A stretch of 64,000 bases of DNA from Hyphomicrobiales bacterium (GTDB lineage Bacteria > Pseudomonadota > Alphaproteobacteria > Rhizobiales > Xanthobacteraceae), in NCBI GenBank assembly GCA_017305715.1, contig JAFKKG010000008.1, positions 62,001 to 126,000 on the forward strand. Reading direction: 5' to 3'. Both the position numbers and the translations under genes were made by a program. The notes beneath the pieces are model-generated. The model did no database searches. It saw only the letters and a list, made by a program, of their open reading frames with translations, and had not been told where the DNA came from. Numbering within the stretch: the stretch's first letter is position 1; every line of letters starts with the position of its first letter. Below, piece by piece: positions 4,936 through 19,249 of this stretch.

Positions 4936-5140
4936 CCCTGCAAGATCGGTGACGGGAAGATGCGCGTTGCTCGTAGTGAAGGTGCTGGATTTCAGAAACA
5001 ACTCAATCTCGTCCTATAGGCTGTCTCAGCACGCGCCTAGGATGAGTGGAGAGCAGTGATACCCATCAGGTATATTGGCGATGGGTTTCGCGAAGCGCTC
5101 AACCCATCCCACGTACTGGAAGCGACGCAGGTGCGCCCGA

Positions 5141-5374
5141 TCAGGCGGCGCGCGATACCGAGCGAATGGGCTCCCAGATCATTTCATCAAGATTCGGCAC
5201 GATTGCCGGCGCCATTTCGCGATCCTGATCGGCCAGCCGATCGATCAGGACTTGAAGCCGGATGGGCAACCCAGCCATTTCGGGGCGCAGGACGGTGCGC
5301 AACCGCTCTCCAATCTCTTCGCAAATGGCACGGCAGTGCACGCTGTCGATTTGCAACCGGTGTGAACCGCTCAA
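5141..5374 (-). CDS. small conserved-looking hypothetical protein, TTG start
   Basis: A 77-residue soluble, acidic/helical protein containing HCRAICEEIGERLR. I do not recognise a named domain, but the composition is protein-like and I recall similar short ORFs in Bradyrhizobium. The start is the TTG at 5374: CGGGAG sits six bases upstream on the minus strand, a good ribosome site, and no in-frame ATG is near. It lies downstream of glnE on the same strand with a 175-base gap. A plus-strand frame over the same DNA looks like a shadow. Confidence 0.55.
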   Translation of the reverse strand: MSGSHRLQIDSVHCRAICEEIGERLRTVLRPEMAGLPIRLQVLIDRLADQDREMAPAIVPNLDEMIWEPIRSVSRAA

Positions 5375-5549
5375 CTTATTCTCCCGTAGTCCAAGTCTTC
5401 TTCAGGGACAATAAGCGTCAAATTTTAAGGGACCGAACGCGTTTCTTCCCGCATTTGAATGTCGAGCATTACGCAAGGTTAACTATAGGCGAATGAAGCT
5501 GTAAGATGGTTAGAGAACGGGTGGAGCGCAACGACACCATCCCGCCGCC

Positions 5550-8510
5550 CTATCCCCCACCCACCAGTGCCAGAAACACCCGCCGCACCTCGGCCTGCGT
5601 CTCCCTTACCCGCGCCTCCAGCGTCGAGAAATCCGGGGTGTCGCCGGCGCGCGCCATCACGCGCAGCAAGTCCTCGCCTGAGGTCTCCGGGTTGAATTTT
5701 CCCGTCACGCACAAGCGCAAGATCTGCGTCAGATCGTGATAGAGCCGCGCCGCGGAGCGCAGCACTTCGGCTTCGGCTTGCGGCAAGACGCCGAGCCGGG
5801 CGGCGTTGTCAAGCACCTGCAAGGTCGAGACGCTGAGGATTTCCGGCTTCCGAGACGCATGAGCCAGTTGCAGATATTGCGCGATGAAATCGATGTCGAC
5901 GAGGCCGCCGGCGGCGAGCTTCAAATCCCAGATATCGTCCTCGCCCTTTTCCAGCGCGATCGCCTTGCGCATGTCGGCGACGTCGGCGGCGGTGCTGGCG
6001 GGATCGCGCGGGCGCACCAGCACGCCGCGGATGATGTCCTCGATCTTCCTGCGGAACGCAGGCGAAGCCGAGATCACCCGCGCGCGGGTCAGCGCCATGT
6101 GCTCCCAGGTCCAGGCCTCGCGCTCCTGATAATCGGCAAACGCGTCGATCCGCGACGCCACCGGGCCGGCGCGGCCGGACGGGCGCAGGCGCATGTCGAC
6201 GTCGTAGAGCACGCCGTAATTGGTCCGCGTCGTGAAGGCCGAGATCAGGCGCTGGGTCAGCCGCGCGAAATATTGCGCGCCGTGCAGCGAGCGCTCGCCG
6301 TCGGAATCAGGCGCGTCCTCGTCGAAATCGTAGAGCAGGATCAGATCGAGGTCTGATGAGGCGGTCATCTCGCGGCTGCCGAGACGGCCCATCGCGAGGA
6401 TCGCGGTCTCCTGCCCTTTGATTCTGCCGTACTGGGTCGCGAACTGGCCGGTGACCAGGCCATGCACGGTGTGCACGATACCTTCGGCGACGTCGGCAAA
6501 GGCGACGCTGGCCTGCTGGGCCGACACCGTGCCTGACAGAATGCGCGTGCCGATCAGGAACAGGCTTTCCTGGCCGAACAGACGCAGCCGGTCGAGAAAA
6601 TCCTCGTAGGACGCCGCGTCCTCCAGCGTCGCTGCCAGCCGCGCCGACAATTCCTTCTGGTCCGGCATGGCGCCGAAGAAACGCGGGTCGATCAGCCCGT
6701 CCATGATCTGCGGCGTACGCGCCAGCATGTCGCCGAGCCGTGGCGCGGCGCCGAGGATCAGCGCCACCAGCGCCACCAGATCGCGGTTCTGGCTCAAGAG
6801 CGAGATCAGCCGTCCGCCGCGCTGCAAGGCGCCGAGGAAACGGTCGAACGCCGTCACGGCGTCGTCGGGGTCCTCGGCATGCGCGAGGCCGTCGATCAGG
6901 CCGGGGATGAATTCGAGGAACGCGGTCTTGGTGGCCTCGTTGCGCAGCGCGCGGTAATCGCCCGCGATCCATTGCTGCAGCGTGCCGGCGACCATGATCG
7001 GCTTCTTGAAGCCGAGCGAGCCGAGATGTTCGAGCAGCCGCTTGTCTTCCGGGCCGGCGCCATAATTGACGTCGGGCAGTTTCACGGTGCCGGTCGGATC
7101 GCCCTCGAACAGCTTGCTGTAATGGCCCTGCACTGTGTTGAGATGCCCGAGCAGGTCCTTTGCGAAGGCGGCGCGGCTCTCGTAACCGAAGAAATGTGCA
7201 AAGCGCTCGACCGCCGCCGGCTCGTCGGGCAGCGCATGGGTCTGCTCGTCCGCGATCATTTGCAGCCGATGCTCGACACGGCGCAGATATTCGTAGGCGA
7301 CCGTGAGTTCTTCCAGCGCCTGAAAGGTGATCCAGTTGCTGGTCGCCAGAACCTGCAGGGCCTGCAGCGTCGGCCGCACCCGCAGGTGCGGATGCCGGCC
7401 GCCCGCGATCAATTGCTGGGTCTGGGCGAAGAATTCGATCTCGCGGATGCCGCCGCGGCCGACCTTGACGTTGTGGCCCTCGACCGCGATCTCGCTCTGG
7501 CCGCGATAGGTCTGCATCTGCCGCTTCATGTCGTGGACGTCGGCCAGCGCCGCAAAGTCGAGATGCTTGCGCCAGACGAAGGGGGACAATTCGGCAATGA
7601 GCGCTTCGCCCGCGCGGGGATCGCCGGCGCAAGGCCGCGCCTTGATCATCGCAGCGCGCTCCCAGGTGCGGCCTTCGCGCTCGTAATAATGCAGCGCCGC
7701 CTCGGTCGACATCGCGACCTGGGTCGAGGCCGGATCCGGCCGCAGGCGCAGATCGACCCGGAACACATAGCCCTCGCCGCTGCGCTGTTGCAGCAGCCGT
7801 GCCAGGGCCTGCGTGACGCGCACGAAGAACGGCGCCGGCTCGATGTCGGCGACCAGCGACGTCGCGGCCGGATCGAAGAACACGATCAGGTCGATGTCGC
7901 TGGAATAGTTCAGTTCGCCGGCGCCCATCTTGCCCATCGCCAGCACGATGAGGCCGCAGCCCTCCTCGGGCTTTTCGTGGTTCGCCGCATTCATCCGGCC
8001 CCGTGTCACCTCCTGGCGGAGCAGAAAGCGCAAGGCCGCCTGCACCGAGGCCACCGCCAGATCGGTCAGCGCCGCCGTCACCCGCATCACCGGCCAGACC
8101 CCGCCGATGTCGCACAGCGCGATCATCAATGCGGCTTCCGCCTTCATCCGGCGCAGCAGATGCATCACGTCGGTCTCGCCGGGCGCATTGAACACGTCGT
8201 GGCCGGTGTTCGCGATCAGCGCCGCAAGATGCGACTCCGGGTCGCACGTCAGGAGCCGGATCAGCCGCGCCGCATCGGCGCGCACGAGATCGAACAGATA
8301 GGGCGAGAATTCCGCGATCCCGAGCAGGATGCGTCTCGCGAACGGCTGCTCCAGCAGCGCGTCGAGCGCAGCCGATTGCGCCGGCTCGAGGTCCGAGAGC
8401 CAGTCGTTCAAAACCTGTTCGGCATTGCTGGAAGCAGAGACAAAAGGCCCGTCCACGAAGCGCGTGGCGAGGCCCTGTCCTTCCGCGTTGCCCGGCGCGG
8501 ATGAGTTCAT
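5550..8510 (-). CDS. glnE: glutamine synthetase adenylyltransferase/deadenylylase
   Basis: A 986-residue bifunctional enzyme that attaches AMP to, and removes it from, glutamine synthetase in response to PII/glutamine. Two nucleotidyltransferase cores are visible: the N-terminal one with GELNYSSDIDLIVFFD and the C-terminal one with GRLGSREMTASSDLDLILL, each followed by helical PII-uridylyltransferase-like domains. Length is normal for the family (~950-1000). The start overlaps the stop of the upstream histidine kinase by four bases (ATGA at 8507-8510), so the pair is translationally coupled. This links nitrogen control to the kinase transcript. Confidence 0.97.
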   Translation of the reverse strand: MNSSAPGNAEGQGLATRFVDGPFVSASSNAEQVLNDWLSDLEPAQSAALDALLEQPFARRILLGIAEFSPYLFDLVRADAARLIRLLTCDPESHLAALIANTGHDVFNAPGETDVMHLLRRMKAEAALMIALCDIGGVWPVMRVTAALTDLAVASVQAALRFLLRQEVTRGRMNAANHEKPEEGCGLIVLAMGKMGAGELNYSSDIDLIVFFDPAATSLVADIEPAPFFVRVTQALARLLQQRSGEGYVFRVDLRLRPDPASTQVAMSTEAALHYYEREGRTWERAAMIKARPCAGDPRAGEALIAELSPFVWRKHLDFAALADVHDMKRQMQTYRGQSEIAVEGHNVKVGRGGIREIEFFAQTQQLIAGGRHPHLRVRPTLQALQVLATSNWITFQALEELTVAYEYLRRVEHRLQMIADEQTHALPDEPAAVERFAHFFGYESRAAFAKDLLGHLNTVQGHYSKLFEGDPTGTVKLPDVNYGAGPEDKRLLEHLGSLGFKKPIMVAGTLQQWIAGDYRALRNEATKTAFLEFIPGLIDGLAHAEDPDDAVTAFDRFLGALQRGGRLISLLSQNRDLVALVALILGAAPRLGDMLARTPQIMDGLIDPRFFGAMPDQKELSARLAATLEDAASYEDFLDRLRLFGQESLFLIGTRILSGTVSAQQASVAFADVAEGIVHTVHGLVTGQFATQYGRIKGQETAILAMGRLGSREMTASSDLDLILLYDFDEDAPDSDGERSLHGAQYFARLTQRLISAFTTRTNYGVLYDVDMRLRPSGRAGPVASRIDAFADYQEREAWTWEHMALTRARVISASPAFRRKIEDIIRGVLVRPRDPASTAADVADMRKAIALEKGEDDIWDLKLAAGGLVDIDFIAQYLQLAHASRKPEILSVSTLQVLDNAARLGVLPQAEAEVLRSAARLYHDLTQILRLCVTGKFNPETSGEDLLRVMARAGDTPDFSTLEARVRETQAEVRRVFLALVGGG

Positions 8511-9985
8511 GCCACCTTCTGTGGCACATCCTGCGTTTGAGCCGCAAGCCTGTCACCGGAGGCCGCCAGGGCCGGGATGACCAGGGTTGCGATCAACCCC
8601 GGATGGGCATCGCCGAGCCGGAGTTCGCCGCCATGCAGGGTGGCCACCGCCGAGGCCAGGCTGAGGCCGAGGCCGGAACCGGGCAGCGTCCGGCTGGCTT
8701 CCAGCCGCACGAAACGCTCCACCGCGTGCTTGCGGTCGGCTTCGGGAATGCCGGGACCGTGGTCGGTGACGCTGAGCAGCACGGAAGCCCCCTCGCGCCG
8801 CGCCTCGATCAGGATCTCGCGGGATCGCGCCGCCACGGCGGCGTCCAGCGGCTGCACCGCGGGATCCGGCTTGCCGTATTTGATCGCATTCTCGACCAGA
8901 TTGGCCAGCGCCTGGCTGATCAGTTCGCGGTTGCCATGGAGCCGCGCGGTTTCGGTCCTGACGCGCAGGGTCAGCCCGTCGTCTTCGGCCAGCGGCTCAT
9001 AGAGTTCGTGAATGCCCTTGGCGACGTCGGCGGCGTCGAAATCGTCCATGTTGTCGCGCGCCTGCCCGGACTCGGCGCGCGCGATCATGAGCAGCGCGTT
9101 GAAGGTGCGGATCAGGCCGTCGGATTCCTCGATGGTGCGTTCCAATGCGGCGCGGTATTCGGCCTCGCTGCCGGAACTCGCCAGCGCCTCCTCGGCGCGG
9201 TTGCGCAGCCGCGTCAGCGGCGTCTTCAGATCATGGGCGATGTTGTCGGAGACCTCCTTGAGGCCCATCATCAAAGCCTCGATGCGCTCCAGCATGGCGT
9301 TGAGGTTTTCCGCGAGCCGGTCGAGTTCGTCGCCGCTGCGCCCGACCGGCAGCCGGCCGGAGAGATCGCCCGCCATGATGCGCTGGGTGGTGCCGGTCAT
9401 GGCGTCGATCCGGTATAGCACCCGCCGCGCCACGAAGATGCCGCCGCCGAGGCCGAGCACGATGACGACCAGCAGCGACCATTGCGCGGCTTCGGCGACG
9501 ATGCCGAACAGCCGACGCCGTTCATCGAGATCGCGTCCGACCAGGAGCCGAAAACCGTTGTCGAGCTCGGTGACGCGCACCAGCGCGCGATGGTTGGCGG
9601 TGTCCTGCTCGTCGAGCCGGCGGTACGCGGTCTCGGACCAGCCCGTGGAGGCCATCACGCCGGGAGACAGCGATTCGACATTCCCGCCGAACGCCGTTCC
9701 GGCCGGCGTGGTGACGAGATAGAGATTGGCGCCGGGCCGCAGGGCGCGATAGGCGAGCGTGGTGGCAAGGCCGCGCAAGCCCCGGCGCGCATAGGTGGTC
9801 TCGATCTCGGTGATCTCGGCATTGACCGTCGTGGTGATCTGCTCGTTGATCAGCCGGCGCGTATTCCAGGCGAAATAGCCCAGCAACGAGGCGGCAAACA
9901 GCGCAAACAGGAACAGATAGGCCAGCGTCAGGCGGAACGCCGTGGTGCGGATCAGTTTACCGAATGCCGTCACGGATCGTTTCAC
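8507..9985 (-). CDS. HAMP-containing sensor histidine kinase, separated from its regulator
   Basis: An inner-membrane sensor kinase of 492 residues: TM1 at ~17-40, a periplasmic sensing region at ~41-165, TM2 at ~169-190, HAMP at ~190-243, phosphoacceptor H251 in NIAHDLKTPLTRLR, and a HATPase with GPGIPEADR and GSGLGLSLA. The GTG at 9985 has no clear ribosome site; a second GTG at 9973 would also fit. No response regulator adjoins it. The nearest OmpR-type regulator on the same strand is at 15544-16224, beyond a block of unrelated genes, which suggests the pair was split by insertion. Confidence 0.92.
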   Translation of the reverse strand: MKRSVTAFGKLIRTTAFRLTLAYLFLFALFAASLLGYFAWNTRRLINEQITTTVNAEITEIETTYARRGLRGLATTLAYRALRPGANLYLVTTPAGTAFGGNVESLSPGVMASTGWSETAYRRLDEQDTANHRALVRVTELDNGFRLLVGRDLDERRRLFGIVAEAAQWSLLVVIVLGLGGGIFVARRVLYRIDAMTGTTQRIMAGDLSGRLPVGRSGDELDRLAENLNAMLERIEALMMGLKEVSDNIAHDLKTPLTRLRNRAEEALASSGSEAEYRAALERTIEESDGLIRTFNALLMIARAESGQARDNMDDFDAADVAKGIHELYEPLAEDDGLTLRVRTETARLHGNRELISQALANLVENAIKYGKPDPAVQPLDAAVAARSREILIEARREGASVLLSVTDHGPGIPEADRKHAVERFVRLEASRTLPGSGLGLSLASAVATLHGGELRLGDAHPGLIATLVIPALAASGDRLAAQTQDVPQKVA

Positions 9986-10138
9986 CCGACATGTTGAATG
10001 CTGTCATGAACATTATCACGGGTATTTGGAGCGCCTGAAGTGACAATGCGTTCATGAACCGGAAGCGGCGAATGGTTCGTGAGCGTTATCCATTGCGAGC
10101 GCCGCCCCTGCGATCGCCGACTGTCGCCACGATCTTTA

Positions 10139-10157
10139 TTTCCTTTTGTTTACAATC
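10139..10157 (+). repeat. left copy of 19-base direct repeat bordering the 10-15 kb block
   Basis: TTTCCTTTTGTTTACAATC here recurs as TTTCCTTTTGTTTGCAGTC at 15322-15340 in the same orientation (17 of 19 identical). It sits between the kinase start and the end of the oxidoreductase gene. A small hairpin (GCCGC/GCGGC, 10163-10176) follows. It may be an insertion scar; chance similarity of pyrimidine-rich sequence cannot be excluded. Confidence 0.4.
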
Positions 10158-10218
10158 TATTAGCCGCTCTGGCGGCCATCATCCGTCGCAAGCATGTCGA
10201 TTCTGGAACGATCGACCG

Positions 10219-11829
10219 CTACGACTGGGCATCCGTGCCCAGGATGCGCGCCGCGGCGTGCTCGCCGATCATGAGCGACGCCGCATTCGTATTGGCGGAT
10301 GTGACAGTCGGCATCACCGAGGCGTCGGCTATCCGCAGAGATGATAGTCCGCGTACCCGCAAGTCTGGATCGACGACCGCCATGGCATCCGTGCCAATCC
10401 GGCAAGTGCCGCTCGCATGGAACACCGTACCGCCGCTGGATCGGACGAAATCGAGGATATTGGCGTCCGACTGCACCGATGCACCGGGCAGCACCTCCTC
10501 TTCCCAAAGATCGCGGAATGCCGGCTGGGCGTGGATTTCGCGAATGATCTTGACGCCCTCCACCATCGTCTTGCGATCGATTTCCGCCGCGAGATAATTA
10601 GGGGCGATCTCGGGCTGCGCGAAAGGATCGACCGACCGGATGCGCACGTGACCGCGCGATTGCGGGTGGCATTGCCAGAACGACGTGGTGAAACCCGAAT
10701 ATGAGTGGAGCGGCTCGCCAGGCTTGTCGACCGACAGCGGCATGACATTGAACTGGATGTCCGGCCGGCCGGGACGTGCATATCGTGTCATGGCCGCGCC
10801 CCCTACCTGACCTGCTCCAACTGTCAAGGGCCCGCGGCCGCGCAGCGCCCAATCCAGCCCCATCGCCGCCAGCTTCAATGGATTGCGCACATCATCGTTG
10901 AGCGACCGCTTGTGCTTGAGGCGAAGGATCGACCGCACCTGATAGTGGTCCTGCAGATTGGCGCCGACGCCAGGCAGATCGATGATTGGTGCAATACCAA
11001 GCGGTTTGAGAAGTGCAGCCTCGCCGATGCCGGAGAGTTGCAGAAGCTGCGGCGATTGCACCGCCCCCGCACAAAGAATGACCTCGCGCTCGGCATGCGC
11101 GGTGCGGACCTGACCTCCAACGATATACTGCACGCCCACCGCCTCCGCGCCTCGCAGGAGAATGCGGCTGACCTGTGCGTGCGTCACGATGGTCAGATTG
11201 GACCGATGCCGGATCGGGTGCAGGAACGCGGCCGCGGCGCTCGCGCGCCAATAGCGGCCGATGCTCAGCTGGTAGCTGCCGACGCCGTAGGTACTCTCCC
11301 CGTTGAAGTCCGGGTTGCGCGGCAGCCCGTATTGCACGGCCGCCTCGATCCACGCGCGACAATCGGGATGATCGTTGCGGAGATCCGACACATCCAGTTC
11401 GCCCAGCGCGCCGCGATACTGCGAAGCCGCGCCGTTGTAACGCTCGATCCGCCTGAAATGGGGCAGCACAGCACGCGAACCCCACCCGGTCCCGCCGAGC
11501 CGTTCCCATTCATCGAAGTCTTCGTGCTGCCCGCGGATGAAGATCAGGCCGTTGATCGAACTCGAGCCGCCGAGAACGCGCCCCCGCGGCCATGCAATCG
11601 CCCGGCCGCCCGAGCCTTCGCAGGGTTCTGTCTGGAAGATGCGCGAGAAGCGTTCGTCGTAAATCGTTCGAAAATACCCCACCGGGATTTTCAGCCAGAA
11701 GCTTTTGTCCTGCCCGCCTGCCTCAAGCAGGAGGACGCGGTGAGCCGGGTCAGCGGATAGCCGGTTTGCGAGCACCGAGCCCGCGGAGCCAGCTCCAACG
11801 ATCACGTAATCATAACCTTGTCCGCCCAT
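10219..11829 (-). CDS. GMC-family FAD-dependent oxidoreductase, alcohol/choline dehydrogenase-like
   Basis: A 536-residue flavoenzyme of the glucose-methanol-choline family. The dinucleotide site YVIVGAGSAGSVLANRL is at residues 8-24, GMC signature 1 (PRGRVLGGSSSINGLIFIRG) at about 88-107, and the catalytic His/Asn pair near the C-terminus in FHASGTCRIG and TSANTNAASLMIGE. It would oxidise a primary alcohol to an aldehyde; the substrate is not determinable. The ATG at 11829 starts the flavin fold; an upstream in-frame start at 11898 would lie in the operator region. It is divergent from the GntR regulator and shares a palindromic control region with it. Confidence 0.92.
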   Translation of the reverse strand: MGGQGYDYVIVGAGSAGSVLANRLSADPAHRVLLLEAGGQDKSFWLKIPVGYFRTIYDERFSRIFQTEPCEGSGGRAIAWPRGRVLGGSSSINGLIFIRGQHEDFDEWERLGGTGWGSRAVLPHFRRIERYNGAASQYRGALGELDVSDLRNDHPDCRAWIEAAVQYGLPRNPDFNGESTYGVGSYQLSIGRYWRASAAAAFLHPIRHRSNLTIVTHAQVSRILLRGAEAVGVQYIVGGQVRTAHAEREVILCAGAVQSPQLLQLSGIGEAALLKPLGIAPIIDLPGVGANLQDHYQVRSILRLKHKRSLNDDVRNPLKLAAMGLDWALRGRGPLTVGAGQVGGAAMTRYARPGRPDIQFNVMPLSVDKPGEPLHSYSGFTTSFWQCHPQSRGHVRIRSVDPFAQPEIAPNYLAAEIDRKTMVEGVKIIREIHAQPAFRDLWEEEVLPGASVQSDANILDFVRSSGGTVFHASGTCRIGTDAMAVVDPDLRVRGLSSLRIADASVMPTVTSANTNAASLMIGEHAAARILGTDAQS

Positions 11830-11849
11830 TTTCCCGCTAGCCAAACATT

Positions 11850-11894
11850 CTAAACATACTATAGTATCAAACGTACTATAGATAGGATGTTTAG
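11850..11894. promoter_or_regulatory. operator region between oxidoreductase and GntR genes
   Basis: An inverted repeat with 13-base arms (CTAAACATACTAT at 11850-11862 and its near-complement at 11882-11894, 12 of 13 pairs) encloses a perfect palindrome ATACTATAGTAT (11856-11867) and a second TACTATAG (11874-11881). The region is much more AT-rich than its surroundings. Its position, 21 bases from the oxidoreductase start and 26 from the regulator start, suits binding by the GntR/UTRA protein and dual control. Confidence 0.6.
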
Positions 11895-11920
11895 ACAAGC
11901 AGCCTCGCCGCGGACCCCTT

Positions 11921-12658
11921 ATGAACGAAACCGGTCACCGCATTTTCGGCTCGACGCCCATTCCACGCTACGTGCAACTGGCGGAGTTGTTCCGCCACCG
12001 CATGGACAAGGGCGAATGGAGACCCGGCAGCACCCTGCCATCGATCGACGATCTGATGGAACAGTTCGACGTGGCCCGCGTGACGATACGCCAGGCCATC
12101 GCGCTGCTCGCGGACGAGGGCCTGCTGTCGCCGCAGCGCGGCCGGGGCACGTTTGTCACCGAGAAGGCGGGCATGCGACGGCAGTTGCGCGTCGAAACGA
12201 CGCTCGCCGATCTCGTCCAAATGTATCGCGGCGACCGCCCGGAACACTCGACAGTCGAAGAAGGCGTGAGCAGTCCGGTGATCAAGGCCGCCGAAGGGAT
12301 GGCCGCGCCAAAGTACTTCCATATGCGACGCGTGCATTCCCGAGACGGCGAGCGCTACTGCGTCATCTCGATGTATATCGATTACCGCGTGTTCCGGCGG
12401 GCACCTGCGCGATTTCGCCGTGAACTGGTGCTGCCGCTGCTGACATCGCTGCCAGGCCTCAAAATTGCCTCGGGCCGTCAGACGCTCACCATCACAAAGG
12501 CCGACGTTGAGACCGCGCGCTTGCTAGGGATTGCCGTCAACACGCCAATGGCGGAGGTACGTCGAGTCCTTTGCGGCGCTGACGGCGCGGTCGTTTATCT
12601 CGCCGACGTGACCTATCGCGGGGACTACATCCACCTCGAGATGGATCTGAGGCCATGA
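11921..12658 (+). CDS. GntR-family (HutC/UTRA) transcriptional regulator
   Basis: A 245-residue regulator. The winged helix at ~14-78 includes LPSIDDLMEQFDVARVTIRQAI with the GRGTFV wing; the C-terminal ~140 residues form a UTRA ligand-binding domain (AxEVRRVLCGADGAVVYLADV). Such proteins are usually repressors released by a pathway substrate or product. The ATG at 11921 begins the normal family N-terminus. It is divergent from the oxidoreductase gene, with the palindromic operator between, and upstream of the binding protein and sulfatase genes, so it probably controls the whole block. The effector is unknown. Confidence 0.92.
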   Translation: MNETGHRIFGSTPIPRYVQLAELFRHRMDKGEWRPGSTLPSIDDLMEQFDVARVTIRQAIALLADEGLLSPQRGRGTFVTEKAGMRRQLRVETTLADLVQMYRGDRPEHSTVEEGVSSPVIKAAEGMAAPKYFHMRRVHSRDGERYCVISMYIDYRVFRRAPARFRRELVLPLLTSLPGLKIASGRQTLTITKADVETARLLGIAVNTPMAEVRRVLCGADGAVVYLADVTYRGDYIHLEMDLRP

Positions 12659-12833
12659 CGCAGCAATCCCGTGCGCACCGTGTCGTGCGGGCCCCTCAAC
12701 GACATCTGCGATGGGCGGGCAACACTGACTGAAAAGCCGGGTCTGGGCTTCGGAGACGACGATCTCGTCGCCATAGAGCGTTATCGCGTCCGGCACCGAC
12801 CGCGGCGCGGACAGAAAACAGGGAGGAGGAGAG

Positions 12834-13802
12834 ATGTCGTTCGTTCATCGGGTAATCACATCGGTTTGTCTGCTGTTTCTTTATGCGCCAACAGCCTTTG
12901 CACAGCCTTATCCTAGTCGGATCATCAAGCTCGTCGTTCCATATCCGGCCGGAGGTGCCATCGACATCACCGGCCGCTTGCTCGCCGAACATCTGCAAAG
13001 AGAGTTGAACGCCACCATAATCGTGGAGAACAAGGCAGGAGCCGGCGGTACGATTGGGGCCAATGCCGTGGCCAAGGCCGCGCCTGACGGTTACACGATC
13101 CTGTTGAGTGGCGCCGCCACGCACGCATTCGCCCCCTCGCTGTTCAAGACGCTGCCATACGATCCTCTCGCCGACTTCACGCCGATCACCCAGGTGTCGG
13201 AAGGCTACCTCGCCCTGACCGTGAAGGCCGACTCGGGCGTCAAGGATCTCGCCGGCTTCATCGCGACGATGAAGGACAAGGGCGCGTCCAGCAACTACGC
13301 CAGCAACGGCTTTGGCACCTACCCCCATCTGGCCATGGAACTCCTCAAGCAAACGGCTGAGATCGACGTGACACACGTCCCGTTCAAGGGCGGCAATGAA
13401 TCAGTGACGGCGCTGCTTGGAGGACAGGTGCAGGCGACCCTCAATCACCTGCCGGTAGTCCAACCGCAGGTCGACGCCGGAGCGTTTCGTATACTCGCAA
13501 CGTCGGGACCTGTGCGCGCCCGTGCGTTCCCTGACGCCCCGACACTGAAGGAATCCGGATACGACGTCGTGGCTTCCGCCTGGTTCGGCCTGTTTGCCCC
13601 TGCTGGAACGCCGCGAGAAATCGTCGAGCGGATTTCCACTGCCGTTGCCCGCGTCGCGAAGAATCCTGAATTACAGGAGAAGCTGCGCATCCAAGGCGAC
13701 GAGGTTCGCGTGGAGGGATCGGAAAATTTTCTGACGCTCCAGAAGAGCGAACTGGAGAAGTGGAAAACGGTGATCGAAAAGGCCAAAATCGTCATCAACT
13801 GA
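12834..13802 (+). CDS. Bug/TctC-type extracytoplasmic solute-binding protein
   Basis: A 322-residue periplasmic protein of the tripartite tricarboxylate transporter receptor family. The signal peptide is residues ~1-23 (ending AFA). The family core follows: YPSRIIKLVVPYPAGGAID, ENKAGAGGTIGANAVAKA-DGYT, HVPFKGGNESVTALLGGQV and APAGTPREIVERI. A strong GGGAGGAGGAGAG ribosome site precedes the ATG. No TctA or TctB membrane genes are near, so it is one of the many orphan Bug proteins and may serve a distant transporter or a sensor. The sulfatase gene follows after 10 bases and is almost certainly cotranscribed. Confidence 0.92.
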   Translation: MSFVHRVITSVCLLFLYAPTAFAQPYPSRIIKLVVPYPAGGAIDITGRLLAEHLQRELNATIIVENKAGAGGTIGANAVAKAAPDGYTILLSGAATHAFAPSLFKTLPYDPLADFTPITQVSEGYLALTVKADSGVKDLAGFIATMKDKGASSNYASNGFGTYPHLAMELLKQTAEIDVTHVPFKGGNESVTALLGGQVQATLNHLPVVQPQVDAGAFRILATSGPVRARAFPDAPTLKESGYDVVASAWFGLFAPAGTPREIVERISTAVARVAKNPELQEKLRIQGDEVRVEGSENFLTLQKSELEKWKTVIEKAKIVIN

Positions 13803-13812
13803 AAGTGCCCCG

Positions 13813-15276
13813 ATGAGTCTACCCAACATCATTCTCATTATTACCGACCAGCAGCGCGCCGACACCATCGCGGCATTGGGCGCCCCCTGGATGCACACGC
13901 CGCATCTCGACCGGCTGGTACGAGAAGGCACTGCTTTCACCCAGTGCTTCGTCACCTCACCCGTTTGTGTTGCCTCCCGCGCCAGCCTGTTCACCGGCAA
14001 GTATCCGCACAGCACGCACGTGTTCACGAATTTCGAACCATGGCAGCCGACGTGGGTCCCGTCGCTTGCCGCGCAGGGCTATCACTGCGTCAACATCGGC
14101 AAGATGCATATCAACCCGTACGATGCCGCCGGCGGCTTTCATCAGCGTTTCGTCGTGGAGAACAAGGACCGGCCGCTTTTCCTGGAGGAACGCGATCGCG
14201 CGATCTACGACGAATGGGACAAGGCGCTGCGTGTGCGTGGCCTGACCAAGCCATCGCGGTTCAACCGCCATGCCGGCGACCCGGAAGGTTACAAGCGCGC
14301 GCTCGGTGCGTTCGCCTGGCATCTCGATGCCGACATGCACCCTGATAATTTCGTTGGGAATACTGCGTGCTGGTGGATCGAAGATCGCAAATGCCCGGAC
14401 CCTCTGTTCCTTCAAATCGGCTTTCCGGGCCCGCATCCGCCTTACGATCCCCTGCCCGAATGGCTTGACCGGTACGCTGAAGCCGATATCCCCGTGCCGG
14501 ATGTCAGCGACTCGGAGCTGGAACACCAGCCGCGCGCTCTGAAGATGTTGCGCGAGAACATGACGCGCTTGAACTTCGACTCCGTAAACTGGCGAACCGA
14601 CGCGAGCCACGAGGACTTGCTGCGGCTGCGCCGCCATTACGCCGCCAATGTCTCGATGATCGACGAACAGGTCGGGCGGATCATGGCAGCGCTCGATGCA
14701 AAGGGTTATCTGGACAATGCAATCGTGATTTTCACGTCCGATCATGCCGATGCCCTCGGCGATCACGGTCATATCCAGAAATGGACGATGTACGATACCG
14801 TGCTCCGTGTTCCGCTGGTGTTGTGGTCGAAGGACCGGATAGCTGCCGATCGCCGTCGTGACGACCTGGTGCAACTCATCGACATCGCTCCAACCATATT
14901 GGAAGCGGCCGACGTGCCGGTGCCGCCCGACTTCGAGGCCCGCTCGCTATGGGGAGCACTCGAGGATCGTGCAGGCTATGTACCGCGCGATACGGTCTAT
15001 TCTGAAGTCGCGCGCGACCACGTGCAAACCGGTGCGGAATTGATCGTCATGCGACGCTGCCGGGACTGGAAGCTCGTCGTCTATCTCGATGACGAGGAAG
15101 GCGAACTCTACGACCTCCGTGCCGATCCCGACGAGAAGCGCAACCTGTGGCACGAGCCCGGAGTTCGCGATCGACGAGACAAGATGATCGGCGAGACCCT
15201 GCGCTGGTCCGTGGGAGGCTCCCTAAAGGCACACCGCCGCCCAACCCGAGCACCACAGAAGGCGATGCCGGTGTAG
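13813..15276 (+). CDS. type I sulfatase, formylglycine-dependent
   Basis: A 487-residue alkaline-phosphatase-superfamily hydrolase with no signal peptide. Metal ligands start at TDQQRAD (D12), the catalytic C52 lies in SPVCVASRASLFTG (the C-x-P/A-S-R type needing conversion to formylglycine), and a second metal site appears in TSDHADALGDHG. Size and cytoplasmic location resemble choline-sulfatase, but phosphonate/phosphate ester hydrolases share these motifs. The Ala at the usual Pro position is an accepted variant. Neighbouring oxidoreductase and binding protein suggest use of a sulfated alcohol: import, desulfation, oxidation. No sulfatase-maturing enzyme is in the window. Confidence 0.9.
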   Translation: MSLPNIILIITDQQRADTIAALGAPWMHTPHLDRLVREGTAFTQCFVTSPVCVASRASLFTGKYPHSTHVFTNFEPWQPTWVPSLAAQGYHCVNIGKMHINPYDAAGGFHQRFVVENKDRPLFLEERDRAIYDEWDKALRVRGLTKPSRFNRHAGDPEGYKRALGAFAWHLDADMHPDNFVGNTACWWIEDRKCPDPLFLQIGFPGPHPPYDPLPEWLDRYAEADIPVPDVSDSELEHQPRALKMLRENMTRLNFDSVNWRTDASHEDLLRLRRHYAANVSMIDEQVGRIMAALDAKGYLDNAIVIFTSDHADALGDHGHIQKWTMYDTVLRVPLVLWSKDRIAADRRRDDLVQLIDIAPTILEAADVPVPPDFEARSLWGALEDRAGYVPRDTVYSEVARDHVQTGAELIVMRRCRDWKLVVYLDDEEGELYDLRADPDEKRNLWHEPGVRDRRDKMIGETLRWSVGGSLKAHRRPTRAPQKAMPV

Positions 15277-15321
15277 ACCCTGGTAACACGGCTGCACCTA
15301 GCGACTTCCTGAGTATTGTTC

Positions 15322-15340
15322 TTTCCTTTTGTTTGCAGTC
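15322..15340 (+). repeat. right copy of 19-base direct repeat
   Basis: Partner of the copy at 10139-10157, 46 bases past the sulfatase stop. It overlaps a hairpin (GTCGGGC/GCCCGAC, 15338-15357). Position at the other edge of the foreign-looking block is its main interest. Confidence 0.4.
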
Positions 15341-15409
15341 GGGCGTCACTGCCCGACCGGCGGCAGTTTCCTTATGCGCTCGCCATTTCGCGAAGCGCGA
15401 TCAACGGAG

Positions 15410-15440
15410 AAAGCCCCGCTCGGGCGGGGCTTTTGCTTTT
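15410..15440 (+). terminator. rho-independent terminator after the sulfatase gene
   Basis: A 9-base stem (AAAGCCCCG/CGGGGCTTT) with a six-base loop is followed by TTTTGCTTTT on the plus strand. It ends the binding protein-sulfatase transcript. On the minus strand the stem is followed by TTTCTCC, so it may also stop the response regulator transcript, separating it from the block. Confidence 0.75.
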
Positions 15441-15543
15441 CGGTGGCGCTGCGGAACGCAACTGACGGCCAGGAGACGCGGTAAATGGAAATAGCAGGCG
15501 ATCCAGAGCAACACGCCTGAACAAGCACAACAATTATTGCAGC

Positions 15544-16224
15544 TTATCTGATGCCGTCCCGGATCATGTAACCCGCGCCGCGGATCGTATGCAGCAGGGG
15601 GCGCTCAAAGCCCTTGTCGATCTTGGAGCGCAGCCGCGAAATGTGCACGTCGATGACGTTGGTCTGCGGATCGAAGTGATAATCCCAGACGTTTTCCAGC
15701 AGCATCGTTCGCGTCACCACCTGCCCCGCATGCTTCATCAAATACTCGAGCAGGCGGAATTCGCGCGGCTGCAGCGTCAGTTCGTCCTTGCCGCGGGCGA
15801 CGCGGTGCGACAGCCGGTCGAGTTCGAGATCGCCGACCTTGTAGGTGGTCTCCTCGGCCGGACCGCCATGGCGGCGCGACAGCACTTCGACGCGCGCCAG
15901 GAGTTCGGCGAATGAATAGGGCTTTGGCAGATAGTCGTCTCCGCCGGCGCGCAGGCCCTTGATGCGGTCGTCGACCTGCCCGAGCGCGGAAAGGATCAGG
16001 ACCGGCGTGCGGTCGCCCTTGTCGCGGAGCGCGCCGATCAGGGACAGGCCGTCGCGCTTGGGCAACATGCGGTCGACCACCAGCACGTCGTAATCGCCGC
16101 TGTCGGCGAGCGACAGCCCTTCCTCGCCATCGCTGGCGAGATCGGCGACATAACCGACTTCACGGAACGCCTTCACCAGATAGTCGGCGGACTCGCGGTC
16201 GTCTTCGATGATCAGAATGCGCAT
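15544..16224 (-). CDS. OmpR-family response regulator, separated from its kinase
   Basis: A 226-residue two-component regulator: receiver domain with acidic pair D8/D9, phosphoacceptor D51 (VLVVDRMLPKRDG) and K near 100 (YLPKPYSF), then a winged-helix domain (PREFRLLEYLMKHAGQVVTR, DVHISRLRSKI). The start is uncertain: the ATG at 16224 begins the receiver exactly as in the family but lacks a ribosome site; a GTG at 16245 would add seven residues. No kinase gene adjoins. The likely partner is the kinase at 8507-9985 on the same strand, 5.5 kb downstream beyond the inserted block. Confidence 0.93.
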   Translation of the reverse strand: MRILIIEDDRESADYLVKAFREVGYVADLASDGEEGLSLADSGDYDVLVVDRMLPKRDGLSLIGALRDKGDRTPVLILSALGQVDDRIKGLRAGGDDYLPKPYSFAELLARVEVLSRRHGGPAEETTYKVGDLELDRLSHRVARGKDELTLQPREFRLLEYLMKHAGQVVTRTMLLENVWDYHFDPQTNVIDVHISRLRSKIDKGFERPLLHTIRGAGYMIRDGIR

Positions 16225-16497: not shown

Positions 16498-18102
16498 TTA
16501 ACCCTTGGCTACCGGAACCGCCACAAACCGCGACGAACCGCCGCTCTTCACGCGCATCAGCACGCTGTTCTTGTTGTCGGTGCGCGCCGCGTTGATCGCA
16601 TCGCGGACTTCGCTGGCGGTGGCGACGCTCTTGCCGCCGACTTCCAGGATCACGTCGCCTTCCTTGAAGCCGCGCTCTGCCGCCGCACTCTTCGGGTCGA
16701 CGTCGGTGACCACGACGCCTTCCTTGCCGGCGCCGGCAACGCTGTTGGCGGGGGCGACGGTCATGCCGAGCTTCGGCACGTCGGTTCCCTTGTTCGGCGT
16801 GGCCTTGTCGCCATCGTCGAGGCTGGCCTTGGCCTCAACCGTGTTCGGCAGCTGGCCGAGCGTGAGGTTGACGACCTTGTCCTGGCCCTTGTGCAGCACG
16901 TTGAGTTTCACGGCAGCCCCCGGCGCCAATCCACCGATGGTGCGGGCGAGTTCGCGCGCATCCTTGACCGTCTCGCCGTTGACCGCGGTGATGACGTCAC
17001 CGGATTCGATGCCGGCCTTGGCCGCCGGACCGTTGGCCTGCGGTTCCGCCACCAGCGCGCCTTCCGCCTTCTTCAGGCCGAGGCTGTCGGCGATATCAGA
17101 CGTCACCGGCTGAATCTGGACGCCGATCCAGCCGCGGGCGACCGAACCCTTGTCCTTGAGCTGGGCAACCACGTTCTTCACCGTGGAAGCGGGGATCGAG
17201 AACGCGATGCCGACGCTGCCGCCGGACGGCGAATAGATCGCGGTATTGACGCCCATCACCTCGCCAGCCGTATCGAATGCCGGTCCACCCGAGTTGCCCT
17301 TGTTCACGGGCGCGTCGATCTGGATGAAATCGTCATACGGACCGTTGCCGATGTCGCGGCCGGAGGCCGAGACGATGCCGGCGGTCACGGTGCCGCCGAG
17401 GCCGAACGGGTTGCCAACCGCGAGCACCCAGTCGCCGATCCGCGGCTTGGAGTCGGAAAGTTTGGCGAACGGGAAGTCGGTGCGGCCGGCGACCTTGATC
17501 AGCGCGAGATCGGTGCGCGGATCGGTGCCGATCACCTTGGCGGTATAGGTCTTGCCGTCGTCCATCGTGACCTCGACCTTGTCGGCGCCGTCGACGACGT
17601 GATTGTTGGTCACGGCATAGCCGTCAGGCGAGATGAAGAAGCCGGAACCCTGGCCGGTCACGGGACCACGGCCGCCACGCGGTCCGCCGCGCAGGCCCGG
17701 GGGCAACCCATCCGGTCCGCCGAAGCGGCGGAAGAAGCGTTCCATGGGCGAGCCCGGCGGGAACGGCGAGTCCTCGTCCTTGTTGGCGCTATCGTCCCTG
17801 TCCTTGCTGGCGAGCTTCTCGGCAATGTTCACCTTGACCGAAATCACCGACGGCTTTACGCGCTCGACGATGTCGGCAAAGCCGATCGGCCGCTCAACCT
17901 TGCGAACTTCGTTGTTGACCTGCGCGTGCGCCGCGCTGGTGAAAATATCGACCGGTCCCTGCGAGGGCGTGAGGCCATAGACCGCGACGCCGAGGCCGGC
18001 GACGACGGAGGCCATCAACGCGAATTTGCGCGCCGAGAACAGCTGACGGCGCGGTGCGCCATAGGACGGAAGCGAGGAAAGATCGACGGGACGTTCGGTC
18101 AT
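16498..18102 (-). CDS. Do/HtrA-family periplasmic serine protease with two PDZ domains
   Basis: A 534-residue envelope quality-control protease. An N-terminal signal or anchor lies at ~26-44, a Gly/Pro-rich loop at ~112-148, the trypsin-like domain has H168 (NNHVVDG), D198 (TDLALIK) and S271 (GNSGGPA), and two PDZ domains follow (~300-400 and ~430-530). The ATG at 18102 has GGAGA nine bases upstream; a further in-frame start at 18150 has none. It lies upstream of the response regulator gene but a terminator intervenes. HtrA linked to a two-component system fits envelope-stress sensing. Confidence 0.95.
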   Translation of the reverse strand: MTERPVDLSSLPSYGAPRRQLFSARKFALMASVVAGLGVAVYGLTPSQGPVDIFTSAAHAQVNNEVRKVERPIGFADIVERVKPSVISVKVNIAEKLASKDRDDSANKDEDSPFPPGSPMERFFRRFGGPDGLPPGLRGGPRGGRGPVTGQGSGFFISPDGYAVTNNHVVDGADKVEVTMDDGKTYTAKVIGTDPRTDLALIKVAGRTDFPFAKLSDSKPRIGDWVLAVGNPFGLGGTVTAGIVSASGRDIGNGPYDDFIQIDAPVNKGNSGGPAFDTAGEVMGVNTAIYSPSGGSVGIAFSIPASTVKNVVAQLKDKGSVARGWIGVQIQPVTSDIADSLGLKKAEGALVAEPQANGPAAKAGIESGDVITAVNGETVKDARELARTIGGLAPGAAVKLNVLHKGQDKVVNLTLGQLPNTVEAKASLDDGDKATPNKGTDVPKLGMTVAPANSVAGAGKEGVVVTDVDPKSAAAERGFKEGDVILEVGGKSVATASEVRDAINAARTDNKNSVLMRVKSGGSSRFVAVPVAKG

Positions 18103-18349
18103 TGTTGGAAATCTCCAGATCCATAATCGACGGTGCGGGGGGCTGGGCACCTGACAGGACTGAAGATGGGGTTTGCCGCCTTACAGCGGGCTGGCGAGGG
18201 AATTAAACTTTTGTAATGGAGGGGGTTATGACTGCGGCAGTTTAGCGCAGGCAATCAATGGCTTAACGGGAACGAAAAAGTCCTTTTGCGCAATCAGCCA
18301 TGGAATCCCGGGAAGCTGGTTCCCCCGGGGCGATTTGCGGCCGCAGCGA

Positions 18350-19249
18350 TCAGCGATTGCCCGACAAGCCCGGATGAAAGGAGAATCCAATGCCGGCGCC
18401 GGGATACCAATGCGCGGCCGGCTCTTCCTTGAAGAAGATGAAGTTTCTTCCGCTGCGTTCCGAAAAATCCGCCAGGGACGGCGAGCAATGCGCGTTGTCG
18501 CCCAGGATCACCGACCGGTCCGACAGCTTGGCTCTTATTGCCTCATATTCCCGGGCCTCGTAGTCCATCGAGTGGTCGGAATCGTTGATGAAGAGATCGA
18601 TCGGTCCGGCCAATTTGCCGAGCGATTCCAGCGAATCTCCGTACCGGATTTCACCGACCGTATTGAATGGAGCGGTGAAGATCTGCCCTGCACCGGTGCG
18701 CAATTCGATCCCAATATAACGGCCGGGCGAACCCTCCCCGGCATTACGCAGCAGCGCCGCGCACAGGACGCAGCTGCCCAAACCGTAATCCACGCCGGTC
18801 TCCACGATGGTGGCCGGCTTCATGATACGCGCAACGGCGTACCAACCCAGCCGGCGGCCGATGGAGAACGACGAAACGCCCGGAAGCAATGCCTTGAGGC
18901 TTTGTGCGACGTGCTTCTGAAAGACTTCGTCATTTTCGATCTCCTCGAACAGGGATCGAACCAGCGCGGGCGTGACGCCAAAAACCGTTGCGATGGTATG
19001 GGCGAGGCTAAGCCTGCTGAGAGGCGTCAGAGCATAGAGGAAGTTGCTGCTCTCGCTGTCACTCAGAGCCCATGACTTCGCAAGATCGACTTGCGGCTGA
19101 ACATACGCCATTGCGAATTTCAGTCGGCGCCGCTTATCGACCGGCCTGCCAAACTGCCTGTCGATGCGTCTGAGGCCCAGATACAGCGATCCAAGATGGG
19201 GACGCAGCCACGCGGGCGATGACCGTTCAATAATGGACTTTACAGACAT
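18350..19249 (-). CDS. class I SAM-dependent methyltransferase
   Basis: A 299-residue protein whose C-terminal ~170 residues hold a Rossmann methyltransferase fold: motif I TIVETGVDYGLGSCVL, acidic YIGIEL after strand 2, and IDLFINDSDHSMDYEAREYE resembling Methyltransf_24 enzymes. The N-terminal ~110 residues are basic and helical and not recognised. The ATG at 19249 has GGGAGG four bases upstream. Substrate is unknown; the DNDSDH-like acidic cluster is reminiscent of metal-dependent O-methyltransferases and of glycan-modifying ones. It lies between the ccm operon and the protease gene without clear functional linkage. Confidence 0.78.
   Translation of the reverse strand: MSVKSIIERSSPAWLRPHLGSLYLGLRRIDRQFGRPVDKRRRLKFAMAYVQPQVDLAKSWALSDSESSNFLYALTPLSRLSLAHTIATVFGVTPALVRSLFEEIENDEVFQKHVAQSLKALLPGVSSFSIGRRLGWYAVARIMKPATIVETGVDYGLGSCVLCAALLRNAGEGSPGRYIGIELRTGAGQIFTAPFNTVGEIRYGDSLESLGKLAGPIDLFINDSDHSMDYEAREYEAIRAKLSDRSVILGDNAHCSPSLADFSERSGRNFIFFKEEPAAHWYPGAGIGFSFHPGLSGNR

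Follow-up and report, generated by a model that had tools for sequence, protein, structure and literature searches.

The overlap between a response regulator gene and its histidine kinase gene as a putative, repeatedly used integration site of genomic islands in Bradyrhizobium

What has come between a response regulator and the histidine kinase expected beside it, and is the interruption a single accident or the mark of a dedicated element? The question is raised by a 64,000-nucleotide stretch of the 7.45-Mb, 51-contig genome of a Hyphomicrobiales bacterium (assembly GCA_017305715.1, contig JAFKKG010000008.1, positions 62,001 to 126,000; G000:C1:62001-126000 in our numbering), hereafter called the window, whose nearest named loci are nearly all from Bradyrhizobium. 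Here an OmpR-type response regulator (RR) and a histidine kinase (HK) are separated by 5.5 kb carrying four cargo genes, and glnE is still coupled to the kinase; all of these genes lie where a sequence-only reading of the window had put them, HK being given there as 8507-9985. That reading proposed that a foreign module had been inserted into a regulator-kinase-glnE operon. Comparison with relatives bears out the insertion and argues against a single event, since the site appears to be a hotspot with a dedicated integrase: the RR/HK junction is very probably (we estimate about 0.84) the attachment site (attB) of an island family that integrates through a P4-type tyrosine integrase. The genes of the interrupted unit are as follows.

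5550..8510, minus strand: glnE (Pfam GlnE and GlnD_UR_UTase), terminal gene of the RR-HK-glnE unit
8507..9973 from the conserved GTG, frame open to 9985, minus strand: HK, a histidine kinase with HAMP, HisKA and HATPase_c domains
15544..16224 with ATG at 16224, frame open to 16245, minus strand: RR, an OmpR-type response regulator

HK and glnE overlap by 4 bp. The true start of HK is probably the GTG at 9973 rather than 9985, since the alignments of nearly all orthologues begin at residue 3 to 5 of the longer frame and the same GTG sits within the conserved core described below.

Are the two genes neighbors in related genomes? HK and RR were searched in 146 genomes of the same genus, the window's own included, keeping the best match per genome; two genomes with neither orthologue (G090, G097) and one with RR only (G137) were left out. 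By coordinates, RR and HK are adjacent in 107 of the remaining 143 genomes, overlapping by exactly 17 bp in 97, while they lie apart on one contig in 30 (28 in the same orientation, with gaps from 81 bp to 174 kb) and on different contigs in 6. Junctions were read in all 35 non-adjacent genomes other than the window's and in about 16 of the 107 adjacent ones. One candidate split, G016, was rejected as a contig-edge artefact with an intact junction, giving a final tally of 108 genomes with the pair together and 35 with it split, the window included. Four genomes of one clade (G037, G073, G081 and G144) were scored as split despite gaps of only 81 to 843 bp. Adjacency in relatives without the block, the outcome that the sequence-only reading had named as support for insertion, is thus the prevailing state, and among the 146 genomes the window's block occurs at the RR/HK site in the window only. 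Of the genomes sampled, the two closest by HK and RR identity, G085 and G012, are both intact. Conserved adjacency in relatives speaks against a chance pairing and marks RR and HK as a probable cognate pair, in which HK would pass phosphate to RR.

The opposite polarity, in which separation would be ancestral and the 17-bp overlap derived, can draw on the fact that some loci of other genera also lack an RR beside HK. Among 23 loci from other genera of the family, 9 had no RR motif within 1.5 kb upstream of HK, although the motif used could miss an RR; 4 had other spacings (64, 76, 152 and 1015). However, the standard spacing is the commonest within the genus and is also found at 10 of the 23 outside loci, and the inserts vary in size and content, which together make an ancestral separation extremely improbable.

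Intact junctions read GGATACATGATCCGTGACGGCATTCGGTAAACTGATC or nearly so, with RR ending GYMIRDG-I/L-R-stop and HK beginning at the GTG within CCGTGACGG. The inserts differ from genome to genome and the insertion point is common to them: a core, ATGATCCGTGACGG, that spans the end of RR and the start codon of HK. With up to 2 mismatches this core is present on both sides of the insert in all 35 split genomes. The RR-side copy is exact in 21 genomes and the HK-side copy in 26, and 30 genomes have no more than 1 mismatch in either copy. A single target site that is closed in relatives and a direct core repeat at both ends are what is expected of a site-specific genomic island, and the window has both, with 1 mismatch per side and an additional fossil core on the HK side. 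The end of RR beyond the core is kept in 33 of 35 split genomes, as G-I-R (27), G-M-R (3) or G-L-R (3) followed by a stop, and yet the final 12 nt of RR have 20 spellings across these 35 genomes, mostly in other codons. On the whole, incoming DNA thus appears to supply its own version of the RR end.

The candidate catalyst is a P4-type tyrosine integrase of about 410-450 aa, found repeatedly on the HK side (cluster 0, comprising 14 frames from 12 genomes), with Arm-DNA-bind_3, Phage_int_M and Phage_integrase domains, the last under its cut-off in the G088 protein. Across the 146 genomes this integrase gives 11 matches of at least 63% identity (in G088, G128, G104, G028, G019, G053, G052, G145, G033, G007 and G057), every one on the HK side of a split locus, and the next match falls to 39%. 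The gene is oriented away from HK, and its 5' end lies 184-258 nt from the HK-side end in G104 (which has an early stop), G128, G088, G019, G028 and G033, and about 100 nt from it in G052. The integrase is broken in G145 and G057 and reduced to a fragment in G056; an N-terminal piece in G060 matches Arm-DNA-bind_3 slightly below cut-off (E 1.4e-5), and pieces in G107 and G123 were recognised by eye. A search of 296 genomes of the wider family found no match at E 1e-90, in a draw that held no known positive and so shows little. That this protein catalyzes the insertion is our inference from its position and family.

In the mechanism that we propose, strand exchange would take place within the core, which straddles the overlap of the RR end and the HK beginning. 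The last codons of the island would then give RR a complete C-terminus and HK would retain its GTG start, so that both proteins stay whole, while HK and glnE would be moved off RR with island DNA placed directly upstream of HK. HK-glnE would now be transcribed from island or scar DNA, and the altered nitrogen control suggested by the sequence-only reading would be a reasonable expectation. The insert of the window would descend from such an island, reduced in size and without integrase; it would carry a sulfatase module of four genes and adjoin the scar of a further event.

How many events are represented? Grouping the inserts by shared proteins was tried and rejected: the 33 genomes fell into 15 components, and common genes pulled 18 of the genomes into a single lump. 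An HK tree was used instead. On this tree of 119 fragments (39 split, 80 intact), the split/intact label changes 24 times, with starred branches requiring at least 12 of these changes. Within the window's own starred set, 9 of the 11 rows are intact and 2 split. The site would thus have been used repeatedly, with at least 12 gains or losses.

Several observations weigh against this interpretation. No integration or excision has been observed. The label changes may include both losses and gains, and the label is clustered (24 changes against 33.3 in shuffles, with 0 of 500 as low), so that part of the split state is inherited. Built quickly from 540 nt, the tree leaves 49 of its 116 inner branches open, and split genomes are over-represented among its rows. 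The RR end is not restored in 2 of 35 genomes (G053 and G057), and in 4 of 35 it reads as in intact relatives or differs in the stop codon alone (GGCATTCGGTAA once, GGCATTCGGTAG three times). The integrase lies 2.1 kb from HK in G007 and 7.6 kb from it in G053, the window's genome lacks an integrase match at E 1e-30, and the window's HK-side core is degenerate and displaced. Finally, within the insert ends examined the integrase cluster was seen in only 12 split genomes, some with fragments, so the others need either decay or other recombinases. In a rival reading the hotspot is real but owes most of its inserts to other processes, either a number of unrelated recombinases or homologous recombination in the conserved RR and HK flanks, by which whole inserts would pass between species. 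Most split genomes indeed show no cluster member in the insert ends examined, and several inserts have a different type of HK-side end (G007/G058/G068; G073/G081/G144; G075). However, the core is retained even in integrase-less inserts, and the fragmented integrases of several inserts suggest decay. We regard filling by such other processes as unlikely and favor the integrase-bearing island family.

Where does the window itself fit? Its insert is bounded by the following features, from HK towards RR.

9967..9980, minus strand: HK-side core copy ACGATCCGTGACGG, 1 mismatch to ATGATCCGTGACGG, containing the HK start codon
10034..10054, minus strand: motif TGAACGCATTGTCACTTCAGG in a 105-bp spacer, a second element end or candidate promoter part
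10059..10091, minus strand: degenerate (fossil) HK-side island core, from alignment, with derived coordinates
10087..10171, minus strand: HK-side island end, homologous to other inserts and displaced by 105 bp
10145-10155, minus strand: candidate arm site TTGTAAACAAA, within the HK-side island end
15398..15539, minus strand: RR-side island end, similar to the insert end of G145
15554..15567, minus strand: RR-side core copy ATGATCCGGGACGG; the subsequent GGCATCAGATAA is the re-encoded RR end

With the end of RR included, the RR-side end matches that of G145 at 75% over 187 nt (E 1e-27 among 35 ends compared); its non-coding part does so at 71.5% over 144 nt (E 7e-9). The HK-side end matches G057 (75.6% over 86 nt) and also G111, G034 and G019. 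The candidate arm site TTGTAAACAAA, allowing up to 2 mismatches, recurs in 11 other elements at a distance of 103-107 nt ahead of the HK reference point; in the window that distance is 212 nt. The expectation from shuffles is 0.7 genomes in 35. A direct repeat, D8 (10136-10157 and 15319-15340), was considered as a pair of arm sites and rejected, its RR-side copy having no parallel in other elements; its HK-side copy contains the motif common to the 11 elements.

Alternatively, illegitimate or homologous recombination could have inserted the 5.5-kb block once, with its position at the core a coincidence. Such an event would account for the lack of an integrase among the block genes and in the genome at E 1e-30, and for the presence of part of the block as a chromosomal cluster in G020. 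Against it stand 34 other genomes split at the same core, and because both block ends resemble those of other inserts at the junction, such an accident is very unlikely. Judged from its two ends, the window insert is probably a shrunken, immobile relic of an integrase-bearing island, and it probably adjoins the scar of another event, which we take to be the older one.

The 105-bp spacer of the window contains TGAACGCATTGTCACTTCAGGC, and this pattern, with up to 1 mismatch, occurs once in the window's genome and in 5 of 146 genomes altogether (the window's, G073, G081, G144 and G075), once in each, always 48-71 nt upstream of the displaced HK match and in the orientation of HK. Since G073, G081 and G144 form one clade, which also includes G037, the carriers amount to three lineages. 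G037 has no motif match and a gap of 81 bp between RR and HK. The motif may mark where a second family of elements ends, or it may form part of a travelling promoter. A tentative and rather doubtful extension is that the islands act as a heritable switch on the two-component system, placing the kinase and glnE under incoming promoters and re-coupling them to RR when lost, with TGAACGCWTTGTCACTTYWGGC as a portable promoter part in three lineages; under such a switch G037, sister to one of the motif lineages, could rely on read-through from RR. Two candidate transcription signals were rejected: a sigma-70 scan for a new HK promoter was uninformative (2 matches, both on the opposite strand, against 1.7 expected), and terminators in the RR direction do not characterize the inserts in general (2 of 35, where 1.0 would be expected).

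The block between the two island ends, and the gene upstream of RR, are composed as follows.

10219..11898, minus strand: GMC oxidoreductase (Pfam), cargo; choline-dehydrogenase-like, under the NCBIfam cut-off
11921..12658, plus strand: GntR/UTRA regulator, cargo
12834..13802, plus strand: TctC-type receptor, cargo
13813..15276, plus strand: sulfatase, cargo
16498..18150, minus strand: htrA/degP-type protease, upstream of RR, beside which it stays in relatives

The GMC and gntR genes are divergent, with starts 22 bp apart, and repeated TACTATAG half-sites, found by eye between and around these starts (window 11849-11890), are a likely operator of the pair. Measured in 1-kb windows, GC content runs at 0.60-0.64 within the block, lower than in glnE/HK (0.66-0.69) and htrA (0.655-0.666); it is also 0.59-0.60 beyond the block, at 5000-5999 and 18000-18999, and because these nearby outside stretches are equally low, GC alone is little proof of a foreign block. 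A terminator-like hairpin between htrA and RR (16369-16340), in a scan that was overall no richer than shuffles (6 against 5.5), suggests that the transcript being cut is RR-HK-glnE. A sulfatase match at E 1e-40 was found in 18 of 146 genomes, and by position only that of the window lies between RR and HK. The closest, at 93% identity, is in G020, 174 kb from that genome's RR/HK, where GntR, TctC and sulfatase genes follow in the same order at 82-85% nucleotide identity; G073 has a 59% sulfatase with a GMC-like stretch (66%) nearby.

Two broader element types were considered. An integrative and conjugative element (ICE) is not supported: a VirB4/TrbE-type ATPase (PF03135, E 1e-10) had no chromosomal match in 18 split genomes other than the window's; the only match lay on contig C2 of G145, and a positive control matched 1 of 14 genomes, leaving the sensitivity of the search uncertain. 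For a symbiosis island, nifH was present in 0 of 12 inserts lying in order on one contig, its location being undecided for 6 genomes with inserts inverted or broken over contigs. In G111, one of these 6, a nifH copy (C10:281778-282590) lies on the insert side at about 27 kb from HK, and a second is elsewhere. In G019 and G145, RR and HK lie on opposite strands of contig C1, 2.2 and 3.2 Mb apart respectively, with island ends at both; the arrangement looks like an inversion between islands or a multi-part element.

Islands in protein-coding genes are already known; here the apparent target is a regulator/kinase overlap, with both proteins left whole and the operon cut. The closest mechanism is that of the dusA-associated islands (Farrugia et al. 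2015, PMC4482086), in which the incoming DNA substitutes for the 5' end of dusA. Like the present elements, these have a dedicated clade of tyrosine integrases, one protein-coding target, very diverse cargo and a workable substitute for the end of the gene. Unlike them, the elements described here target an RR/HK junction, with a core that lies over two genes and partners that become separated. Integration sites named for Bradyrhizobium in two reports include tRNA-Val, ybgC, tRNA-His, tRNA-Ile and tRNA-Pro (PMC9239051, PMC9174649). The symbiosis ICEs described there, at tRNA-Val and ybgC, belong to the same genus and likewise have an integrase beside the att site, one such site lies at a protein gene (ybgC), and some carry large inversions; in contrast, their targets are others and they are associated with a type IV secretion locus, for which the VirB4-type search above gave no chromosomal match in 18 split genomes. 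SGI1-type islands similarly use the 3' end of a protein gene, trmE, in another host group (PMC8409611), and the ICEs and integrative and mobilizable elements of Mesorhizobium, at 16 integration sites, likewise show many elements per site and some protein-gene targets (radC, guaA; PMC8627217). The terms 'response regulator', 'histidine kinase' and 'two-component' are absent from the main texts of PMC11476347 and PMC8627217, and among the top-ranked open-licence PubMed Central papers, judged by title and opening of the abstract, subscription papers being outside our scope, we found no report of integration at an RR/HK junction.

Of the genomes sampled within the genus, about a quarter have the pair split, frequently with an intact close relative, and the genus thereby offers a natural experiment on the value of co-transcribing a two-component pair, and glnE with it. 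The RR/HK site is also worth searching for islands that annotation has missed, and the integrase, together with its short core, may be of use as an insertion tool for the genus.

A control set of 80 named loci, many from the same genomes as the 146, places the break at RR/HK in the same way. RR and HK are more than 1 kb apart in 6 of the 72 loci in which RR was found, 57 being at standard spacing, and a further 8 loci had no RR within the sequence examined upstream of HK. The htrA-RR gap exceeds 400 bp in 1 of 71 loci (428 bp), and HK-glnE is widely open in 1 of 77: in L168 (Bradyrhizobium sp. CCBAU 43298) alone the two genes are distant, by about 7 kb. Among the nearest named relatives of the window, L122 (Bradyrhizobium sp. 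AUGA SZCCT0176) is split and has a shortened integrase frame, recognised by eye.

Some loci show further variants of the junction. A cluster 4 protein of 476-488 aa adjoins HK in L066, L067 and L086 (G068, G058 and G007), which share an HK-side end; in G007 it sits between the integrase and HK, a layout that suggests tandem accretion. Outside the genus, HK has no RR motif in the upstream 1.5 kb at L207, L208, L210, L211 and L213 (g26) and at L212 (g46). At their HK start the g26 loci have CCGTGACGGCTATCGG. Five of the six loci of g26 have one HK-side sequence in common, so that the state of these five looks inherited; the sixth, L206, was not properly located. Eight named loci (L141, L149, L163, L164, L171, L181, L182 and L195) have a junction longer by 20 nt, in which the RR stop is followed by a separate GTG for HK. 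Several of them spell the RR end ATCAGGTAG, as in islands, and such junctions could be deletion scars.

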